Shown here: piece after piece, positions 26,523 to 47,497 of the stretch
How the letters are laid out: each line of letters starts with the position of its first letter
Numbering within the stretch: the stretch's first letter is position 1
Origin: Gammaproteobacteria bacterium
Lineage (GTDB): Bacteria > Pseudomonadota > Gammaproteobacteria > Steroidobacterales > Steroidobacteraceae
DNA length: 64,000 nucleotides
Assembly (NCBI GenBank): GCA_025359205.1
Contig: JANYHD010000019.1
Location: forward strand, 186,001 to 250,000
Reading direction: 5' to 3'
The notes under the pieces: model-generated
What the model saw: the letters and a program-made list of their open reading frames with translations, nothing else
Databases searched by the model: none
What the model was told of the DNA's origin: nothing
Position numbers and translations under genes: made by a program

Positions 26523-27086
26523 ATGTTCGAAGGCGTCGATACCGTAGTCCTGCGCAACGAGCTCGCCTATCACGACACACTGCCGGTGCGCTGGGAGCCG
26601 CTCGAGCGACCGCTCGAGCAGTTCCGCCTGGGTACGCTCGAGGAAGCGAACGTCATGCTGCTGCAGGCCTGCGTCGCGGTCGAGGAGCATCCGCTGCGCG
26701 ACAAAGGCGAGGACCAGCACCCGATGGCGAACGAGCTGGCGCGGCTCGACTTCAAGCTCAACCTGCTGCTGCAGATGGTGGGCACGCTAGTGAACCAGGC
26801 GCCGGCCGTCGACGCGGTGCCGGTGCAGTTCAATGCGCTCGGCGCGTCCTGGCAGGGACGCGCTGCGGCGCCGCGGGTCGGTACGCAGGGCTTGCTGCAT
26901 ATCCGCCTGCGCGGCGCGCTGGTGCAGACTCTCGATCTGTATGCCGAAATCACCGACAGTGAAGCAGGGGCGGTGAGCGCGAAATTCCTCAAGATGCCAC
27001 CCGCGGCCGCCGAGCTGATGCAGCAGCTGTGTTTCCTGCGCCATCGCAAGCAAGTGGCCGGATCGCGTAAATCCCGCAACAAGTAG
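26523..27086 (+). CDS. PilZ-like protein of the flagellar cluster, probably non-canonical
   Basis: A 187-residue protein between fliS and fleQ, a slot occupied by PilZ-domain genes in Xanthomonas-type clusters. About residues 38-88 are long, charged, heptad-like helices (EEANVMLLQACVAVEEHPL, LDFKLNLLLQMVGTLV). Residues about 95-165 are beta-rich with a PilZ-like centre (VQFNALGASWQG) but lack the RxxxR and full D/NxSxxG cyclic-di-GMP motifs. This recalls helix-containing non-canonical PilZ proteins that oligomerise instead of binding the nucleotide. The AGGAAGG ribosome-binding site is good. Confidence 0.65.
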   Translation: MFEGVDTVVLRNELAYHDTLPVRWEPLERPLEQFRLGTLEEANVMLLQACVAVEEHPLRDKGEDQHPMANELARLDFKLNLLLQMVGTLVNQAPAVDAVPVQFNALGASWQGRAAAPRVGTQGLLHIRLRGALVQTLDLYAEITDSEAGAVSAKFLKMPPAAAELMQQLCFLRHRKQVAGSRKSRNK

Positions 27087-28345: not shown

Positions 28346-28409
28346 CGGCCAACGATCGCCTGGGGCGCGGCAAGGCCCTGCCGCTGAGACGCGCTTCACA
28401 CTAAAGGCC

Positions 28410-28425
28410 CGGCACGCAAATTGCT
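28410..28425 (+). promoter_or_regulatory. Sigma-54 promoter of the flrC-fliE...fliK operon
   Basis: CGGCACGCAAATTGCT fits the sigma-54 consensus ([T/C]GGCAC-N5-TTGC[A/T]) with correct spacing. Predicted transcription start is near 28436, about 33 bases before the FlrC-like start codon. Confidence 0.9.
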
Positions 28426-28468: not shown

Positions 28469-29563
28469 ATGCAGACCCCGACCGAGACCTTCCACGGAAC
28501 CGCACGCAGCGACGCCCGCTGCAGCGAGGCCGCTGATCCGGTTGCTTGCGATGCCCTGTCAGTGCAGCTGCTCGCGCTGGCGCGGCGCGTCGCGGCCAGC
28601 GAGTGCACGGTGCTCATCACCGGCGAATCCGGCACTGGCAAGGAAGTCATCGCGCGCTACATGCACCGTCACTCGCAGCGCCGCCACGGCGAGTTCGTGG
28701 CAGTCAATTGCGCGGCTATTCCCGAACACATGCTGGAGGCGATCCTGTTCGGCTGGGAGCGTGGCGCTTTCACGGGCGCGCATGCGGCTCACGCCGGAAA
28801 ATTCGAGCAGGCGCAGGGCGGCACGCTGCTGCTGGACGAAATCTCCGAGATGTCGCTGGCACTGCAGGCCAAGCTGCTGCGCGTGCTGCAGGAGCACGAA
28901 GTTGAACGCCTCGGCGCACGCCTGCCGCTTGCGCTGGACGTGCGTGTGCTGGCCACGACTAACCGGCGGTTGCGCGAGGACGTTGCGGCCGGCCGCTTTC
29001 GCGAAGACCTCTACTACCGCCTGAACGTGTTTCCACTTGCGCTGACGCCGCTGCGCGGCCGCCGCGCCGACGTGCTGCCGCTGGCCATGCGCCTGCTGGC
29101 CAGCCATTGCCGGCCGGGCGAGCGCATTCCGGCCCTGGTCGCGGCGGCTGGCCAGCGGCTGCTGGCGCACGACTGGCCAGGCAACGTGCGCGAACTCGAC
29201 AACGTTATGCAGCGCGCGCTGGTGTTGTGCGAGGGCACGGTCATCGGCGCGGAGCACATTTCCTTCGAGCAACTCGGCGCTGCCGAACCTACTCGGCCAA
29301 CATTTCCGAGTTCTGCGACAGCAAGCCTGGTAACCGCGGCACCCGCGCCCGCACCGCTGCGCGCACGCTCTGCGGGTGCGGACCTGGCCGGCGCGCTGGA
29401 GGCGACCGAATACGAACTGATACTCGAGGCGCTGCGGCGCGACCGGGGCAGCCGGGAGCGCATGGCCGAACGCCTCGGCATCAGTCCACGCACGCTGCGC
29501 TACAAGCTCGCCCGCATGCGCGCGGCCGGCGTGAACCTTGCGTCCGTCGGGAGCGCCGCATGA
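28469..29563 (+). CDS. flrC: FlrC/FleR-like sigma-54 activator lacking a receiver domain
   Basis: A 364-residue enhancer-binding protein. Walker A GESGTGKE at about 52-59, GAFTGA at 99-104, Walker B LLLDE near 120-124, [10 protein letters not shown], and a C-terminal HTH ([20 protein letters not shown]) of the FlrC type. FlrC/FleR normally has an N-terminal phosphorylatable receiver controlled by the FlrB/FleS kinase. Here the first 30 or so residues are too short for a receiver, and no kinase gene lies in the cluster. It has its own sigma-54 promoter and overlaps fliE by four bases. Confidence 0.86.
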
Positions 29564-29938: not shown

Positions 29939-31612
29939 ATGGCCAATGAATCTGCTGTTGTCGTCTCGCGCTCCCCGCTGTTCAATCCGCGGCCGCTGCT
30001 GTTGCTGGTGGGCATCGCCGCGGCGGTTGCTGCGGGCGTCGCCATCATGTTGTGGTGGCAGGGGCCGAACTGGAGCCTGCTGTACGGCAACCTCGAAGCC
30101 AACGATGCCAGCCAGGTCGTGCAGGCGCTGCAGACCGCCGGGATCAAGTACAAGCTCAGCGAAGATACCGGCGCCGTGATGGTGCCGGCCGACGAAGTGC
30201 ACGCGGCACGCCTCAAGCTTGCAGGCCAGGGCCTGCCTGAAGGCAGCAGCAGCGGACTCGATCTCATCAACAAGGACTCCGGCATCGGTGTCAGCCAGTT
30301 CATGGAGAACGCGCGCTACCAGTACGCGCTCGAGACCGAGCTGGCGCGCACGATTTCCAGCCTGCGCAGCGTCGCCGCGGCGCGCATCCATCTGGCGATC
30401 ACGCAGCAGTCAGCTTTCGTGCGCGACCGGCGTCCGGTCAGCGCCTCGGTGTTCCTGCAGCTGCGGCCTGGCGGCCGGCTCGAAGCCGAGCAGGTGCAGG
30501 CCATCATTCATCTCGTCGCTTCCAGCATTCCCGACCTGTCCGCCGACCAGGTGACGGTCGTGGACCAGCAGGGTCGCCTGCTGTCGTCACCCGCTTCCGC
30601 GCAATCGGCGCTGCAGACCGAGCAGTTTGCCGCGGCCCAGCGCGTCGAGGACAGCTACGTGCAGCGCATCGAACAGCTGCTGGTGCCACTGGTAGGCGCC
30701 GGCAAGGTGCGCGCGCAGGTCACCGTCGACCTGGAAACCAACGAGAACGAAGAGAGTCACGAGGAATTCAAACCCGATAGCGCGGTGGTGCGGAGTGAGC
30801 AGACCTCGGAGCAGACTGGGCCAGGCGTCGGTGGCGCTGGTGGCGTGCCCGGTGCGCTCACCAACCAGCCGCCCGCGGGAGGCACGGTCGCGGCCACGCC
30901 GCAGGCTGGCGCTGCAGCAACTGCAGCCGCCACGCCCGGTGCAACCCAGGGCGGCAATGCCAACGCGCCGGCCGGCACCACCACGGGAGGGCCGGGAGCG
31001 GCCGCTGCCGCCGCGGCTGCGGGCGAGTCCGTCAGCAAGCAGGCGACGCGAAATTTCGAGATCAATCGCACGCTGAGCTACACGCGCCAGCCTGGCGGCC
31101 GCATCAAGCGCGTGACGGTCGCCGTGCTGCTCGACAACGTCGCCAAGGTCAGCGCCGACGGCAAGGCCAGTGCGCAGGCGCTGACCGCGGCGCAGCTGGA
31201 CAACATCACCAGGCTGGTGAAGGGCGCGGTGGGCTTCGACGAGGCCCGCGGCGACAACGTCAGCGTCGTCAACGAGGCCTTTCACCAGGACAACGCCGAG
31301 CTGGCGCCGGAGACCGTGCCGCTGTGGCAGCGTCCGATGGTGCAGGATATCGCGCGCCTCGGCCTCGGTGCCCTGCTGTTGCTGGCGATCGCACTGGGTG
31401 TGCTGCGCCCGATGATCCGCAATCTCACCGCGCAGACCATGACTCCGGCGCTGGCGGCGGCGGGCGATGGCCGCGCACCTGAGGCAAGTCCAGCCGCGGG
31501 TGGCGCAGCGCCGACGCTGGCCTATGAACAACAGGTGGTGCAGGCCAAGACTTTGGTGACGCAGGATCCAAAGCGGGTTGCGCAGGTCGTCAAGACCTGG
31601 GTAGGTGAGTGA
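29939..31612 (+). CDS. fliF: Flagellar MS-ring protein FliF
   Basis: A 557-residue membrane protein: TM1 at about 20-40, ring-building motifs (LYGNLEANDASQVVQALQTA, RYQYALETELARTISSL, ARIHLAITQQSAFVRDRRPV), TM2 near 470, and a cytoplasmic C-terminal tail for FliG. The periplasmic region holds an unusually long Gly/Ala/Pro/Thr-rich insert (about 295-365). It starts 13 bases after fliE and its TGA overlaps the fliG ATG. Confidence 0.96.
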   Translation: MANESAVVVSRSPLFNPRPLLLLVGIAAAVAAGVAIMLWWQGPNWSLLYGNLEANDASQVVQALQTAGIKYKLSEDTGAVMVPADEVHAARLKLAGQGLPEGSSSGLDLINKDSGIGVSQFMENARYQYALETELARTISSLRSVAAARIHLAITQQSAFVRDRRPVSASVFLQLRPGGRLEAEQVQAIIHLVASSIPDLSADQVTVVDQQGRLLSSPASAQSALQTEQFAAAQRVEDSYVQRIEQLLVPLVGAGKVRAQVTVDLETNENEESHEEFKPDSAVVRSEQTSEQTGPGVGGAGGVPGALTNQPPAGGTVAATPQAGAAATAAATPGATQGGNANAPAGTTTGGPGAAAAAAAAGESVSKQATRNFEINRTLSYTRQPGGRIKRVTVAVLLDNVAKVSADGKASAQALTAAQLDNITRLVKGAVGFDEARGDNVSVVNEAFHQDNAELAPETVPLWQRPMVQDIARLGLGALLLLAIALGVLRPMIRNLTAQTMTPALAAAGDGRAPEASPAAGGAAPTLAYEQQVVQAKTLVTQDPKRVAQVVKTWVGE

Positions 31613-32622
31613 TGACCGAGGCAGCCATGAACCGGCCGGGTGTGGAACAGGCGGCGATCCTGCTGCTCACGCTCGGTGAGCAGGACGCGGCGCAGGTGCT
31701 GAAGCACATGGGCGCCAAGGACGTGCAGCGCGTCGGCCAGGCAATGGCGCAGCTGACCGGCGTGTCGCGCGAGGAAGTGTCGCTGGTGCTGGGCCGCTTC
31801 GCGACCCGGGTCGAGCAGCAGACCTCAGTCGGCGTCAACTCGGACGAATACGTGCGCAAGGTGCTGAACGAGGCGCTGGGCGCGGACAAGGCCAGCGGCG
31901 TCATCGACCGCATCCTGCGCGGCCGCAGCAGCCGCGGGCTGGAGGCGGTCAAGTGGATGGAGCCCAAGGCGGTGGCGGGCATGCTGCGCAACGAGCATCC
32001 GCAGGTCATCGCCATCGTGCTCTCCTACCTGGATGCGGAGCAGGCCGCGCTGGTACTGGGCGCGTTGCCGCAGGAAATCCAGCCTGACGTGATCGTGCGC
32101 GTCGCCTCGCTCGACGGCGTGCAGCCGGCCGCGCTCAATGAACTCGACGAGGCGCTCGAGAAGCAGTTCACCGGCAAGTCCATGAGCAAGGCCTCGGGCT
32201 TTGGCGGCCCGAAGGCGGCCGCGGAGATTCTCAACCTGGTCGGTGTTGCGCCCGAGGGCCGCATCATCGAGGAGATCGCCAAGACCAACGCCGATCTCAG
32301 CCAGAAACTGCAGGACCTGATGTTCATATTCGACGACCTGATCAGCATCGACGATCGCGGCATGCAGGAACTGCTGCGCGAGATCCCGGGCGACAAGCTG
32401 ATTATCGCTCTGAAGGCAACCACGGAAGAAATGAAGGACAAGTTCTTCAAGAACATGTCCGAGCGCGCCTCGCAGATGCTGAAGGACGACCTCGAGGCCA
32501 AGGGCCCAGTCAAGCTCAGCGAAGTGGAGGCCGCGCAGAAGGAAATCATCTTGACCGCGCGCCGCATGGCCGATGAAGGCAAGGTGCAGCTGGGCGGCAA
32601 GGGCGGAGAGGAATATGTCTGA
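31612..32622 (+). CDS. fliG: Motor switch protein FliG
   Basis: A 336-residue C-ring protein. The EHPQ motif of the FliM-binding middle domain is present (LRNEHPQVIAIVLSYLDAEQ), and the torque helix with its charged residues is intact (TTEEMKDKFFKNMSERASQM, LKDDLEAKGPVKLSEVEAAQ). ATG at 31612 overlaps the fliF stop and follows AGGTGAG; the GTG three bases earlier is less likely. FliG looks fully functional, which makes the absence of its partner FliM from the cluster notable. Confidence 0.96.
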   Translation: MTEAAMNRPGVEQAAILLLTLGEQDAAQVLKHMGAKDVQRVGQAMAQLTGVSREEVSLVLGRFATRVEQQTSVGVNSDEYVRKVLNEALGADKASGVIDRILRGRSSRGLEAVKWMEPKAVAGMLRNEHPQVIAIVLSYLDAEQAALVLGALPQEIQPDVIVRVASLDGVQPAALNELDEALEKQFTGKSMSKASGFGGPKAAAEILNLVGVAPEGRIIEEIAKTNADLSQKLQDLMFIFDDLISIDDRGMQELLREIPGDKLIIALKATTEEMKDKFFKNMSERASQMLKDDLEAKGPVKLSEVEAAQKEIILTARRMADEGKVQLGGKGGEEYV

Positions 32623-35051: not shown

Positions 35052-36397
35052 TGACGCAACCTTCCGGCGCAACAGGCGCCACTGCGGCCAGTGCCGCAGT
35101 CCTGGTTGGAGCACCCACCGAAGGAAGCGAGAGCGCAGGCACCGAAATGCATTGCGCGGCCGGCGGCGCGAACCCGGCGCCGTTCTCGCATGCGTTGCAG
35201 GCGCTGACCGCGGGCGCGGATCCCGCGGGCACGCCGTTGGCAGCCGCCGGTGCGGGAGCCGCCGGCGCGGCTGTTGCCGGCGCCGCCCGCATAACCGGAG
35301 ACGCCACGGGCTCACGATCACTCACCACCGCGCCAGGCAACAGCGAAGCCACTGCTGCTGCGGCAGCGGCATCGTCGGACGGCGTGGCGTCATTGCCGAA
35401 AGACCTGCTGCTCGCGCTGATTGCGGCCGAAGTGGCCGCGCCGGACGCCGGCGGTACGCCGCGCAAGACTGACCTGGTCGGAAGCGATGAATCGCGCGCG
35501 GCCGCAGTGGCGCGCGAGCTTCAGATTGGACTTACGAAGACAGATCAGTCCGCGACCGCCCAGGCTGTGGCCGCCGATCCCGGCGCCGCGCTGCTGGCCG
35601 CTGTACTGCAGTGGCTGCAGCAACAGCATGCGGGAGCACGCGCTGCCGGCGAAACAGACACCAACAGTGAAAGAGCCCTGGCAACCGCCACGGATGCGAC
35701 CAACACGGTGGCAGTCGCTGCGGGCACAGCAGCGCCGATGTCCGGGGGCTCCACGATCACGGCCGGCGCTGGCCGCGCCGACGGCGCTGCCGGCACCATG
35801 TTGGCGGCGGCGCCCGGCGCCGCGCTCTCCAGCGAGTTCGCTTCGCAGCGCGACGGTGACGGGCGCGCAACCGGCGGCGATCAGCCGCGCACGTCGGCGA
35901 TCGCTGCTGACAGTGCGAGCGGAGCAAGCGCGGGCATGGACATGGCGGCCGCGCTGCGCGCGGCGAGCACTGCCGCGGCGGAACAGGTCGAGCGCAGCGT
36001 GGCCGTGCCGGTGCACGAACGCAATTGGCCCACCGCGCTCGCCGCGCAGGTATTGGTCCTCAGCAATGACAATGTGCAGACCGCGACGCTGCGGCTGTCA
36101 CCCGAACACCTGGGGCCCGTCGAAGTGCACATCGACATGCAGGAATCCAACGTCAACGTCAGCTTCACCGCCGCGCACGCCGAGACGCGCGCCGCGCTCG
36201 AACAAGCGATGCCCCAGTTGCGCGCGGTGCTCGCCGGCGCGGGCTTGAGCCTCGGGCAGGCCACGGTGCAGCAGCAAGCGCGACGTGAGTCACAGAATTC
36301 AAATGCGCTGGCGCGCGCCGGCGGCCTGGCGGATGAGCCGATCCAGGCGTCGGCCACCGTGACGCGTGCGCTGGGAATGATCGATGAATACGTCTGA
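35048..36397 (+). CDS. fliK: Hook-length control protein FliK
   Basis: A 449-residue protein. The N-terminal 340 residues are low-complexity Ala/Gly/Thr-rich ruler sequence. The conserved C-terminal switch domain (TATLRLSPEHLGPVEVHIDM, VNVSFTAAHAETRAALEQAM) contacts FlhB. It overlaps the fliJ stop by four bases (ATGA); the longer open frame upstream is fliJ read in another frame. It is the last gene of the operon starting at flrC, followed by the sigma-54 promoter of fliL. Confidence 0.93.
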   Translation: MMTQPSGATGATAASAAVLVGAPTEGSESAGTEMHCAAGGANPAPFSHALQALTAGADPAGTPLAAAGAGAAGAAVAGAARITGDATGSRSLTTAPGNSEATAAAAAASSDGVASLPKDLLLALIAAEVAAPDAGGTPRKTDLVGSDESRAAAVARELQIGLTKTDQSATAQAVAADPGAALLAAVLQWLQQQHAGARAAGETDTNSERALATATDATNTVAVAAGTAAPMSGGSTITAGAGRADGAAGTMLAAAPGAALSSEFASQRDGDGRATGGDQPRTSAIAADSASGASAGMDMAAALRAASTAAAEQVERSVAVPVHERNWPTALAAQVLVLSNDNVQTATLRLSPEHLGPVEVHIDMQESNVNVSFTAAHAETRAALEQAMPQLRAVLAGAGLSLGQATVQQQARRESQNSNALARAGGLADEPIQASATVTRALGMIDEYV

Positions 36398-36416
36398 GCC
36401 GCGTCAGAAATCCGTC

Positions 36417-36432
36417 TGGCACAGCGCTTGCT
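36417..36432 (+). promoter_or_regulatory. Sigma-54 promoter of fliL-fliN
   Basis: TGGCACAGCGCTTGCT is an exact match to TGGCAC-N5-TTGC[A/T]. The predicted start is near 36443, about 29 bases before the fliL ATG. Confidence 0.9.
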
Positions 36433-36471: not shown

Positions 36472-36969
36472 ATGGCTGCTGAAGAAAAGCCCGGCGCTGG
36501 AGCCAAGGCCGGGAAGAAAAGCCCGCTGCCCATGATCATCATCGCGCTGGTGGTGCTGGCCGCGGGCGGTGGCGGCGCCTGGTGGTACCTGAAGCCTAAG
36601 GCCGCTGTACCTGGCAAGCCGGCTGCTGAAGCAGCGTCAACTCATGCCGCCGCGATCTACTACAAGTTCGATCCGGCCTTCGTCGTCAACTTCGGCACCG
36701 ACGGCAACACGCGCTACTTGCAGATCACGCTCGAGGCGATGAGCCGCGAGCAGGCCGTGATCGATGAGATCAAGAACAACGAGCCGGCGATCCGCAATGA
36801 CCTGGTACTGTTGTACTCCGCGCAGCAGCCCGAAGCGCTGCTGGCCCCCGAGGGCAAGGAGAAGCTGCGCCAGGCCACGCTCGAGGCCGTGCGCAAGACC
36901 ATCGCCGCCGAAGGGGCGAAGGCCGAGGCCGTCGAAGCCGTCTACTTCACCAGCTTTGTCATCCAGTAA
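36472..36969 (+). CDS. fliL: Flagellar basal-body-associated protein FliL
   Basis: A 165-residue single-pass inner-membrane protein: cytoplasmic Lys-rich tail, TM at about 21-40 (PMIIIALVVLAAGGGGAWWY), periplasmic SPFH-like domain (FVVNFGTDGNTRYLQITLEA ... VYFTSFVIQ). FliL surrounds stators and supports torque. In relatives it is followed by fliM; here the next start codon, 18 bases on, belongs to fliN. Confidence 0.94.
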   Translation: MAAEEKPGAGAKAGKKSPLPMIIIALVVLAAGGGGAWWYLKPKAAVPGKPAAEAASTHAAAIYYKFDPAFVVNFGTDGNTRYLQITLEAMSREQAVIDEIKNNEPAIRNDLVLLYSAQQPEALLAPEGKEKLRQATLEAVRKTIAAEGAKAEAVEAVYFTSFVIQ

Positions 36970-36987
36970 ACGCCAGGCGAAGCACGC

Positions 36988-37335
36988 ATGAACGCAAACA
37001 ACGCCGAAGCCGCTGTCCAGGCCGCGCCCGTCAGCGATCTGCAGGCCGGGGCTACGGGTGCCGCCACGGGCGGTGACATCAACCTCGACGTGGTGCTGGA
37101 CATCCCGGTCACACTGTCGATGGAAGTGGGTCGCAGCCGCATCAGCATCCGCAACCTGCTGCAGCTCAACCAGGGTTCGGTGGTAGAGCTGGAGCGCGCC
37201 ACGGGCGAGCCGCTCGATGTCTACGTTAACGGCACGCTGGTCGCGCACGGCGAAGTCGTGGTGATCAACGAGAAATTCGGCATCCGTCTGACCGACGTGA
37301 TCAGCCCGGCGGAACGCATCCGCAAGCTCAAGTAA
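36988..37335 (+). CDS. fliN: Motor switch protein FliN
   Basis: A 115-residue protein with a short N-terminal tail and one SpoA (surface presentation of antigens) domain at about 30-110: VVLDIPVTLSMEVGRSRISI, LLQLNQGSVVELERATGEPL, LVAHGEVVVINEKFGIRLTD. The length and tail are those of FliN, not of FliM (about 330 residues), and no FliM N-terminal CheY-binding motif or middle domain is present. It forms the lower C ring and docks FliH. Confidence 0.95.
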   Translation: MNANNAEAAVQAAPVSDLQAGATGAATGGDINLDVVLDIPVTLSMEVGRSRISIRNLLQLNQGSVVELERATGEPLDVYVNGTLVAHGEVVVINEKFGIRLTDVISPAERIRKLK

Positions 37336-37378
37336 CGCGGCGGCGGGCCCGGCAGCGCCGGGAATCCGTCATTCCCGC

Positions 37379-37394
37379 TGGCACAGCGGTTGCA
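37379..37394 (+). promoter_or_regulatory. Sigma-54 promoter abutting the fliO start
   Basis: TGGCACAGCGGTTGCA matches TGGCAC-N5-TTGC[A/T]. From the -12 GC (37392-37393) transcription should start near 37405, one base before the fliO ATG at 37406. Its core is nearly identical to the fliL promoter, differing at two of sixteen bases. Confidence 0.88.
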
Positions 37395-44263: not shown

Positions 44264-45125
44264 ACACATGGGCGAGAGCTCCGTGCGCGGCGCTGTGCGT
44301 GGCGCCGTGCAGGTGATCGCCGTCACCGGCGGGAAGGGCGGCACCGGCAAGACCACCATCGCGGTTAACCTGGCCACGGCGCTGGCACAGGCCGGCCGGC
44401 GCGTGCTGTTGCTGGACGGTGACCTGGGGCTCGCTAGCGTCGACGTGCTGCTGGGCCTCACGCCCACACGCACGCTCGAACAGGTGCTGAGCGGCACAGT
44501 GCGGCTCGAGGAAATCATCCTGCGCACGGCGGAGGGCGTCAGCGTGATCCCCGCCGCCTCCGGTGTCGCGCGCATGGCGCGACTCAATGCGACTGAACAT
44601 GCCACTATAATCCGTGGCTTCGCCTCGCTCCCGGGTGACCATGAGATTCTCGTGGTTGACACCGCCCCGGGCCTGAATGAATCCGTGCTGGCCTTCTGCC
44701 AGGCCGCGCAGCAGCAACTGATCGTGCTGCGCAATGAGCCAGCCTCGCTCACCGACGCCTACGCCCTGATCAAGGTGTTGAGCCGTGACCATCAGGTGAA
44801 CTCGTTCCGCGTGCTGGTCAACATGGCACGCGACGGCGCCGAGGCGCACAACCTCTTCCACCGCCTGCAGCGCGTGACCGACCGCTATCTCGAGGTTGCG
44901 CTCGACTATGCCGGCGAGATTCCCGAGGACGCTGACGTGGCGCGTGCAGTGCGCGGCCAGCGTACCGTGCTCGCGGCCTTTCCAAGTGGACCAGCGGCGC
45001 GCGCCTACCGGCGCCTGGCGCAGGATGTGCAGCGTTGGTCGCTGCCGCTAGCCAGTGGCCGGCTGGAATTCTTTTTCGAGAGACTACTGACGCGCCCCGC
45101 GGCGCGACTGCAGGTGATCAAATGA
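44250..45125 (+). CDS. flhG: Flagellar number regulator FlhG (FleN), MinD-like ATPase
   Basis: A 291-residue MinD-type ATPase with deviant Walker A GKGGTGKT at about 28-35, switch II region LVVDTAPGLNESVLAF and C-terminal LEFFFERLL amphipathic helix. It limits flagellar number and antagonises FleQ in Pseudomonas-type systems. The N-terminus is short and lacks an obvious DQAxxLR activator motif, as in FleN. The ATG inside flhF has a strong GGAGGG site. Confidence 0.94.
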   Translation: MLQHKHMGESSVRGAVRGAVQVIAVTGGKGGTGKTTIAVNLATALAQAGRRVLLLDGDLGLASVDVLLGLTPTRTLEQVLSGTVRLEEIILRTAEGVSVIPAASGVARMARLNATEHATIIRGFASLPGDHEILVVDTAPGLNESVLAFCQAAQQQLIVLRNEPASLTDAYALIKVLSRDHQVNSFRVLVNMARDGAEAHNLFHRLQRVTDRYLEVALDYAGEIPEDADVARAVRGQRTVLAAFPSGPAARAYRRLAQDVQRWSLPLASGRLEFFFERLLTRPAARLQVIK

Positions 45126-45850
45126 ACGGCGTACAAGCCTATGCCAGCGTGGCTCCGCTGCCCAACTTCGACGCGCTCGTGCGCCAGCACGCCGATCTCG
45201 TCAAGCGCATCGCTTACCACCTGGCGGGCCGCTTGCCGCCGCAGGTGGAAGTGGACGACCTGGTGCAGTCGGGCATGATCGGCCTGCTCGAGGCCGCCCA
45301 GCACTTCACCGCCGGACGCGGCGCCAGTTTCGAAACCTACGCCGGCATCCGCATCCGCGGCGCGATGCTCGACGCGCTGCGCAAGCTCGACTGGGCACCG
45401 CGCTCCGTGCACCGCAAGGCGCGCGCCGCCGCCGCCGCAATGCGCGAGGTCGAGGCTCGCACCGGCCGCGAGGCCAGCGACGTCGACGTGGCGGCGCAGC
45501 TGGGCGTGCCGCTGGAGCAATACCACGGCATCCTGCAGGATGCGCTCGGCTGCCAGCTGCTGCGCCTCAACGACGCCGACGACGGCGAGGATTCCACGCT
45601 CGATCGGCTGCCACACGATGGCCCGGACCCGCAGGGCGAGGCGCTCGACGATGCGCGGCGCGAGGCCGTAACTGCCGCCATCAAGGCGCTGCCGGAGCGC
45701 GAGCGGCTGGTGCTCTCGCTCTACTACGAACAGGAACTGAATCTCAAGGAAATCGGCGCGGTGCTCAAGGTCACCGAGTCGCGCACCTGCCAGCTGCATG
45801 GCCAGGCGCTGGTGCGGCTCAAGGCGCTGCTCGCCGAGTGGCGCGGTTGA
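45122..45850 (+). CDS. fliA: Flagellar sigma-28 factor FliA
   Basis: A 242-residue sigma factor. Region 2 (LVKRIAYHLAGRLPPQVEVD, DLVQSGMIGLLEAAQ), region 3 and region 4 (ALPERERLVLSLYYEQELNL, EIGAVLKVTESRTCQLHGQA) are complete. It directs fliC and flgM transcription and is held by FlgM. The ATG overlaps the flhG TGA. Directly followed by motC, with no chemotaxis genes in between. Confidence 0.96.
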   Translation: MNGVQAYASVAPLPNFDALVRQHADLVKRIAYHLAGRLPPQVEVDDLVQSGMIGLLEAAQHFTAGRGASFETYAGIRIRGAMLDALRKLDWAPRSVHRKARAAAAAMREVEARTGREASDVDVAAQLGVPLEQYHGILQDALGCQLLRLNDADDGEDSTLDRLPHDGPDPQGEALDDARREAVTAAIKALPERERLVLSLYYEQELNLKEIGAVLKVTESRTCQLHGQALVRLKALLAEWRG

Positions 45851-45869
45851 GGGACGGACCGCCTCGCTC

Positions 45870-46610
45870 GTGGACATACTCAGCATAATCGGGGTCCTGC
45901 TCGCCGGCACGGCGATCATCGCTGGCGCCGTGCTTAAGGGAGCCGGCCTGCATGCACTGCTGTCGTGGGCGGCGTTCATGATCGTGATGGTCGGGACGCT
46001 GGCCGCGATCTGCGTGCAGACGCCGCTCGAAGTGATGCGGCGCGCATTGGTGATGCTGCCGTGGGTATTCCGGCCGCCGGCGCGCACGCCCGAGGCCCAG
46101 ATCCGCAAGTTGGTTGACTGGAGCGGCATCTCGCGCAAGCAGGGACTGCTCGGACTGGAACCGGTGCTGGGACGCGAGACTGATCCGTTCCTGCGCCGTG
46201 GCCTGCAGTTGGTGGTCGACGGCAATTCACCCGATGCGATTCGTGCCACGCTCGAAGTCGACATGCAGGTGCGCGAGTCGGCTGACCTGCGTGCCGCGCG
46301 GGTGTTCGAAGGCATGGGCGTGTACTCGCCGACGCTGGGCATCATCGGCGCCGTGCTCGGACTGATGGCGGTCATGCAGCACCTCGCCGACCCGAGCCAG
46401 CTCGGCCACGGCATCGCGGCTGCGTTCACCGCCACGGTGTACGGCATCGGCATGGCCAACCTGCTGTTCCTGCCGATGGCCAACAAACTCAAGGTTGCCG
46501 TGCACGCGCATGCGCAGGTGCACGCGATGCTGATCGAGGGATTGATCGGCATCGCCCAGGGCGACAATCCGCGCAGCATCGATACCCGGCTGCGCAGCTA
46601 CCTGAGCTAG
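45870..46610 (+). CDS. motC: Flagellar stator protein, MotA family (MotC-type)
   Basis: A 246-residue, four-TM stator subunit. Start GTG giving VDILSIIGVLLAGTAIIAGA, the usual MotC/PomA N-terminus. Conserved loop and proline segment RVFEGMGVYSPTLGIIGAVL and TM4 GIAAAFTATVYGIGMANLLF are intact. It surrounds the MotD dimer and engages FliG. The gene normally follows cheA or similar; here it follows fliA by 19 bases. Confidence 0.92.
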   Translation: MDILSIIGVLLAGTAIIAGAVLKGAGLHALLSWAAFMIVMVGTLAAICVQTPLEVMRRALVMLPWVFRPPARTPEAQIRKLVDWSGISRKQGLLGLEPVLGRETDPFLRRGLQLVVDGNSPDAIRATLEVDMQVRESADLRAARVFEGMGVYSPTLGIIGAVLGLMAVMQHLADPSQLGHGIAAAFTATVYGIGMANLLFLPMANKLKVAVHAHAQVHAMLIEGLIGIAQGDNPRSIDTRLRSYLS

Positions 46611-46618
46611 GTGCGCAC

Positions 46619-47497
46619 ATGGCCAGGCGGCGAGTCCCCGAAGAACACATCAACCATGAGGCCTGGGCCATACCTTACGGCGACCTGATGACGCTGCTGC
46701 TGGCCTTCTTCGTGGTCATGTACGCCATCTCGTCGGTGAATTCCGGCAAATACCGCGTGCTCTCCGATGCCCTGAGCGCGGAATTCCGCGGCACGCCGCG
46801 CGCGCCGCAACCCATTCCGATTGGCGAGCTGAAGCAGAACATCAGCGAGCAGATGCCGATCACCGAAGTGAACCGCATGTTCACCGCGGGCATGCCCGCG
46901 CACATGCTCATGCCGCTGCCGCAGGCCCGCGGCTCCGTGCGCGAGGGGCAGCCCACTGCGGGTTCGGCTGATCCGCGCGATGCCGCCAATGCCGCATTGA
47001 TCGAAGCCGAGGCCGCGCGGCAGAAGGAGCTGGCCGGTGTCGAGGCTGACGTCAGCGGCGTGCTCGCCAACCTGATCAAGAACAAGCTGGTGAGCGTGCA
47101 GAAGCAGGGCGACTCGGTGCAGGTGCAGATCAGCGCCGACATCCTGTTCGCGAGCGGCGTGGCCGAGCCGGCGCCGGCCGCACTGCCCGTGCTGCAGCGG
47201 CTGGCCGACTCGCTCAAGCCCTGGCCCAACGCCGTGCGCGTCGAGGGCCACACCGACAACGTGCCGATACGCGCGGGCGTGTTTCATTCGAACTGGGAAC
47301 TGTCGGCGGCCCGTGCCGGTAGCGTGGTGCGGCTGTTCACCGAGCGCGGGGTCGATCCGCAGCGGCTCGCGGTCGTGGGCTACGGCCAGTATCGCCCCCT
47401 GCAGGATAACACCAGCGCTTCTGGCCGCAACGCCAACCGGCGCGTCGTCGTCGTCATCATGGGCCGTGGCCGTAACGGCGGCTACGCCAGCTTATGA
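46619..47497 (+). CDS. motD: Flagellar stator protein, MotB family (MotD-type)
   Basis: A 292-residue protein: short cytoplasmic tail, one TM with the ion-binding Asp (WAIPYGDLMTLLLAFFVVMY), a plug/linker, and a C-terminal OmpA-like peptidoglycan-binding domain (VRVEGHTDNVPIRAG, NWELSAARAGSVVRLF, NANRRVVVVI). It anchors the stator to the wall. It starts eight bases after motC. Confidence 0.93.
   Translation: MARRRVPEEHINHEAWAIPYGDLMTLLLAFFVVMYAISSVNSGKYRVLSDALSAEFRGTPRAPQPIPIGELKQNISEQMPITEVNRMFTAGMPAHMLMPLPQARGSVREGQPTAGSADPRDAANAALIEAEAARQKELAGVEADVSGVLANLIKNKLVSVQKQGDSVQVQISADILFASGVAEPAPAALPVLQRLADSLKPWPNAVRVEGHTDNVPIRAGVFHSNWELSAARAGSVVRLFTERGVDPQRLAVVGYGQYRPLQDNTSASGRNANRRVVVVIMGRGRNGGYASL

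Follow-up and report, generated by a model that had tools for sequence, protein, structure and literature searches.

Passages of PMC12199754 state that FliM was reported to be missing from Aquifex aeolicus and that a homologue was noted later. Among the titles and abstract openings that we searched, no report of a relocated fliM was found for the Steroidobacteraceae, the family to which the genome studied here belongs. In a scan of named genomes, the order fliL-fliM-fliN was seen at 73 of 80 FliM loci (the best 80 of 583 confirmed stretches); the other seven of these best 80 comprised two with fliG-fliM-fliN, one with fliM-fliN, two with neither neighbour and two with fliL-fliM in which fliN was undetected, one of them sitting 385 bases from a contig end. 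Given that 73 of the best 80 loci share one order, the absence of fliM between fliL and fliN is unusual.

Such an absence is seen in the window, by which we mean the whole 64,000-nucleotide stretch of DNA that was analysed; its genome is G000, and G001-G014 are 14 further genomes of the same genus. fliL (36472..36969, plus strand) has a likely start at ATG 36472, picked by eye in a frame that is open from GTG 36433, and its product matches the NCBIfam FliL models with a best E-value of 1.2e-31, yet stays under the curated cut-offs. Its TAA stop codon (36967-36969) is separated from the ATG of fliN at 36988 by 18 bases (36970..36987, plus strand), which lie at the place of fliM in most relatives. 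A sequence-only reading of this DNA had claimed that fliM is missing from this position and that the window holds no other FliM-like frame. Both claims are borne out, the same arrangement being present in G002, G012 and G013, and a six-frame search with Pfam PF02154 giving no match on the window contig (C41). FliG had been described as keeping its EHPQ motif and FliN as intact, and this agrees with our analysis: EHPQ is present in the translation of fliG (31609..32622, plus strand), which scores 317.3 bits against TIGR00207 (cut-off 226.7), and fliN (36988..37335, plus strand) reaches 111.6 bits against TIGR02480 (cut-off 84.05). Elsewhere in the window, an atypical PilZ (tPilZ) domain protein is encoded after fliS (26523-27086, plus strand) and may provide a c-di-GMP input to the flagellum.

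The sequence-only reading had allowed for two explanations, a fliM elsewhere in the genome or a C ring composed solely of FliG and FliN, and had named a whole-genome search with a FliM HMM as the means of checking them. PF02154 was run in six frames against the whole genome with E-values up to 10, a search that also gave matches in four of 14 control genomes. A single match was obtained, at 67399-67974 of contig C24 (E 2.2e-57) and inside a stop-free open frame, and no second one was found in this genome (97.4% complete, 43 contigs). The corresponding gene spans 67285-68250 plus the stop codon and encodes 322 amino acids, with the FliM and FliMN_C domains in that order. It scores 281.3 bits against the TIGR01397 equivalog (cut-off 219.6), covering profile positions 1-318 of 320, with 193.2 bits for the PF02154 middle domain (cut-off 27) and 53.1 bits for the C-terminal SpoA domain PF01052 (cut-off 23.8). 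SpoA matches number two in the whole genome, fliN and this lone fliM. Because it is the sole PF02154 match and SpoA occurs only here and in fliN, there is a single candidate for the FliM of the motor, and its gene lies off the operon.

Lone fliM genes are also found in G002, G012 and G013, where they are 86-91% identical to the G000 copy and have the same flanking genes. All four proteins carry the N-terminal sequence LKQEEIDALL, which we take to be of the CheY-binding type of FliM (LSQxEIDALL-type), and a GGxG motif (GGSG, GGTG, GGAG and GGSG), presumably the one that contacts FliG. Residues 1-26 show 93.6% mean pairwise identity, the highest of four regions. dN/dS is 0.08-0.17 over the six pairs of genes, and lone fliM is evolving under purifying selection. 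A C ring without FliM was rejected after the whole-genome search: the complete gene on C24, encoding 322 residues, is what the sequence-only reading had named as a refutation, so that a ring limited to FliG and FliN lacks support and, as a claim about gene content, is refuted. What speaks for such a ring is the local absence of fliM from the operon and, as a passage of PMC12199754 has it, the existence of a few motile species with less than the full FliGMN rotor by gene search; but since this genome and three relatives all encode a complete FliM equivalog on which purifying selection acts, the idea is scarcely credible.

We considered whether the arrangement could be an artefact, with C24 a contaminant or the fliL-fliN junction collapsed during assembly, as the assembly has 43 contigs and an estimated contamination of 2.3%. 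In all four lone-fliM genomes, the upstream neighbour is a diverging alpha-amylase gene, and downstream lie SDR and thiolase genes on the other strand, followed by a methylmalonyl-CoA mutase fusion gene. These common flanks make contamination unlikely. The comparison with sister genomes that the sequence-only reading had proposed showed adjacent fliL and fliN in G002, G012 and G013, the stop and start codons lying 17-18 bases apart; an assembly collapse at the junction, which that reading had named as a possible refutation, is thus not supported. With three other assemblies sharing both the junction arrangement and the remote neighbourhood, contamination and collapse were rejected, and we regard an artefact of either kind as extremely improbable. 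The tetranucleotide correlation between the C24 stretch and the window is 0.988, a value in keeping with the genus that, taken alone, does not point to one genome within it, since three congeners reach 0.979-0.984 (two other genera gave 0.934-0.946). An empty insertion site at the amylase-SDR interval was looked for in the congeners and none was shown: the contig of G004 ends inside the amylase gene, different genes adjoin the amylase in G001 and G014, and five other congeners have an SDR match without the other neighbours inside 1.5 kb.

The region upstream of lone fliM has features that can be compared with promoter-like sites in the window. At -60, GGCACGCATCTTGCTCGA is identical in the four genomes while its surroundings drift, and it fits the GG-N10-GC sigma-54 pattern with 11 of 13 consensus letters. 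In all four, a TGTGA-N6-TCACA palindrome that deviates at no more than one position begins 35-37 bases ahead of this GG. The palindrome resembles what we take to be the CRP/Vfr consensus. In Pseudomonas aeruginosa, Vfr represses the fleQ promoter, according to a passage of PMC3930126. In the window, the sigma-54-type -24/-12 site before fliL, CTGGCACAGCGCTTGCT (36416..36432, plus strand), is accompanied by the palindrome TCTGAGCCGCGTCAGA (36393..36408, plus strand), which has two mismatches and starts 25 bases before the GG; a palindrome is also found before fliL in G002 and was not found there in G001, G003, G007, G008 or G011. The same layout precedes the second of the genes identified by eye as NtrC-type regulators (28469-29563), with a palindrome at 28385 (one mismatch) and a sigma-54-type site at 28409-28425 (28385..28425 in all, plus strand), and recurs in G001, G002 and G007. 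For the site before fliO (37378..37394, plus strand) no palindrome was found.

At a score of 11 of 13, the window contains 12 sigma-54-type sites; some of these are chance matches, since shuffled windows give 2.85. A palindrome with up to two mismatches lies within 90 bases of four of the 12 (spacings 25, 26, 50 and 60); among random stretches the share is 1.1%. Across the congeneric flagellar regions, one with up to two mismatches was found near eight of 19 high-scoring sites (1.2% at random), the eight including orthologous promoter sets and so not being independent. A second site of equal score, which has no palindrome, overlaps the amylase gene start in all four lone-fliM genomes, and the palindrome might serve this diverging gene. 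The layout upstream of lone fliM looks like that of a putative flagellar-type promoter, and we infer that the -60 site is a working one from which the gene would be expressed, driven by RpoN and a flagellar NtrC-type regulator. This resemblance to some flagellar promoters also bears on whether the lone FliM still builds motors or is instead a remnant or a paralogue with a moonlighting role. Such a status would suit a lone gene far from the flagellar cluster and the long stem branch of its clade in the trees described below. The protein is, however, the sole FliM match in the genome and is under purifying selection, so that we find a leftover or moonlighting role very unlikely.

We conclude with considerable confidence that fliM has left the fliLMNOPQR operon and stays in the genome, the complete gene on C24 supplying FliM for a normal three-protein C ring. 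The C24 protein would join FliG and FliN in this ring, and the cell would be expected to swim. The motor is probably ordinary, the surprise being the relocation. Among the observations that weigh against this reading, the GC3 of lone fliM (0.78) is lower than that of flhA (0.88).

Across the genus, FliM is present in 13 of the 14 other genomes. Eight have the order fliL-fliM-fliN (G003, G004, G005 and G007-G011), and in G014, which is 72% complete, no fliM, fliN or fliP was found. The main operon of G001 has fliL-fliN without fliM at a different junction, where, judged by eye, the start of fliN seems to overlap the stop of fliL, and a fliM with a second fliN lies among metabolic genes on contig C63 (L054:9213-10516). 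G006 carries a lone fliM beside non-flagellar genes (L052:9712-10689) and, at another place, a flagellar operon of a distant type that includes a further fliM (L053) and whose FliG and FliM are 45% and 33% identical to the G000 proteins. fliM is accordingly off the usual operon at three different sites in the genus, each behind a sigma-54-type site and a TGTGA-N6-TCACA-like palindrome, which in G001 and G006 has two and no mismatches and starts 25 and 24 bases before the GG. The G001 pair and the G006 lone gene resemble the G000 copy in this respect but differ from it in their insertion sites and in that their FliMs fall in the own-genus clade. Splits of another kind were observed in G003 (L059:10032-19849), G008 (L065:6722-16784) and G011 (L069:7479-10888), where 3 to 10 kb of other genes intervene between fliN and fliO and thus divide fliLMN from fliOPQR. 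A fliG-fliM-fliN cassette is found in G029 (L009, L156), whose FliM groups with genus g1 FliMs although the genome is labelled as another genus.

The position of G004 complicates the history of the loss. Ten flagellar proteins place this genome within the lone-fliM clade, beside G012 (SH-aLRT 99), yet its fliM is in the operon, and several losses or a recombination are needed to account for this. Over the final 71 residues, FliL of G004 shares 70% identity with that of G012 (94% for the same end of G012 against G000), while FliP and FlhA of G004 and G012 are 94-96% identical (FliP 96%). The fliL-fliM stretch of G004 may therefore have been exchanged by recombination, the alternative being repeated loss. 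The combination of a diverged fliL end with closely matching FliP and FlhA (L061, C66) is in itself suggestive of a mosaic operon. The frame of the G004 fliM is interrupted at an ambiguous base, and since the break falls there, a decaying pseudogene was not accepted; no second fliM was found in this genome, which is 72% complete.

To which FliMs the lone copies are most closely related bears on how the gene came to C24. Among the matches listed, lone FliM is 53-57% identical to seven operon FliMs of the genus g14, 48-51% to eight own-genus operon FliMs, and reaches 53-54% with FliMs from other genera in the family. Trees were built with the best-scoring loci of the family, at most 30 per search, where 142 genomes had a match, and with G004 FliM represented by the part after the ambiguous base. 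A first tree of 31 rows placed the lone FliM weakly. In a 49-row maximum likelihood tree, which leaves out L053, L027, L029 and L030, the lone FliMs join the g14 and g10 rows (85/96) on a long stem, and in a 42-row tree, which additionally omits the long rows L024, L028, L022, L006, L018, L020 and L108, they group with g14 (96/96). At 28 diagnostic columns they match g14 in 14, their own genus in seven and neither in seven. Ten other flagellar proteins, in contrast, place the lone-fliM genomes inside their own genus with an SH-aLRT of 100 (a quick tree that leaves out G005 and G029, which have few columns). Among 369 genomes drawn from the class, no FliM at E 1e-100 was found outside the family.

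Since the FliM tree, identities and columns point to g14 and the other flagellar proteins to their own genus, we favour acquisition followed by loss of the operon copy: lone fliM was probably taken up from a relative in the same family, the nearest compared being g14, before the copy in the operon was deleted, which would amount to a xenologous replacement. It is possible, if less probable, that the relocation was native, the operon fliM having been copied into the amylase-SDR interval, where it gained a sigma-54-type promoter and evolved fast before the operon copy was deleted. AU tests in which the lone FliMs were grouped with own-genus FliMs gave no rejection (p 0.106, 0.155 and 0.108). Native copies moreover seem to be mobile in this genus, because the off-operon FliMs of G001 and G006 sit in the own-genus clade (99/97), which also holds G029. 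A native origin is harder to reconcile with the maximum likelihood placement beside g14, with identities to g14 that exceed those to every own-genus operon FliM among the matches listed, and with the excess of g14-type columns. A tie between lone FliM and the fliM-fliN cassette of G001 or the fliG-fliM-fliN cassette of G029 was considered and rejected, a single clade of the lone FliMs with L019, L028, L021, L024 and L009, a group named after a tree had been seen, being rejected by the AU test (p 0.008).

The sequence-only reading had linked the loss of fliM to missing chemotaxis genes. In gammaproteobacteria, che genes are often located between fliA and the stator genes. In the window, a sigma-28-like fliA frame is followed directly by stator genes (45035..47497, plus strand; Pfam sigma-70 regions and MotB_plug/OmpA; motC named by eye and motD by Pfam), and no che genes were found between them. 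The three CheW-domain matches and the single MCP match of the genome all come from one cluster, which in addition encodes two stand-alone receivers and an 1822-residue fusion of the CheA type; we take this make-up to be that of the Chp pilus system. Genome-wide, no flagellar CheA/CheW pair was detected in G000, CheW being confined to this Chp-type cluster. Three CheW matches and a single MCP match were counted in each of the six genomes whose fliM is off the usual operon. Of the eight with an operon fliLMN, seven have five to seven CheW matches and G004 has three; a single MCP match is seen in G004 and in G010, and the other six have two to seven. As several of these genomes are incomplete and all are related, the pattern is an association only. 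The proposed link stands in so far as CheW and MCP are restricted to the Chp-type cluster and three CheW matches accompany every off-operon fliM. It fails in that FliM is not lost and keeps its CheY-binding-type N-terminal motif, and chemotaxis loss therefore did not cause a loss of FliM.

What this N-terminus might bind is suggested by contig C38, where a Hpt/HATPase kinase (729 residues), a CheY-like receiver (125 residues) and a CheX-domain protein are encoded in a row (L251:3793-6836, minus strand). Among the 36 receiver-domain matches in the genome, the C38 receiver is a candidate partner of FliM and a possible motor input. The three off-operon sites, their palindromes and the lack of a detected flagellar chemotaxis array could be drawn together in a broader and decidedly speculative proposal, which we consider unlikely, that the CheY-binding end of FliM hears another CheY-like protein, such as the C38 receiver, giving separate timing of the switch protein together with a rewired motor input.

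The relocation of a core motor gene, the conservation of a promoter-like element before it and the presence of further off-operon copies in the genus are well supported. The rule that FliM is required by flagellar motors thereby loses a seeming exception, which illustrates that exceptions of this kind can arise from reading one operon. The genus offers a natural case in which the gene for one ring subunit lies away from those of the other subunits and apparently has a promoter of its own, in a lineage where no flagellar chemotaxis array was detected. This raises two questions: can the C ring cope with independent control of the amount of FliM, and what conserves the CheY-binding end of FliM once the flagellar CheA has gone? 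Compared with canonical FliM (TIGR01397; PF02154 and PF01052), the lone protein is alike in its full-length domain order, equivalog score and GGxG and EIDALL-type motifs, but is encoded off the fliLMNOPQR operon as a single gene with its own sigma-54-type site; it also lacks the C-terminal tail found in most of the relatives compared. The fliLMNOPQR operons of g14 and other Steroidobacteraceae, which hold the nearest FliM sequences, have the gene order of the window apart from fliM, which in them lies between fliL and fliN. Aquifex aeolicus belongs to a different phylum, but there, as here, passages of the source indicate that an apparent absence of FliM was explained by an overlooked gene.
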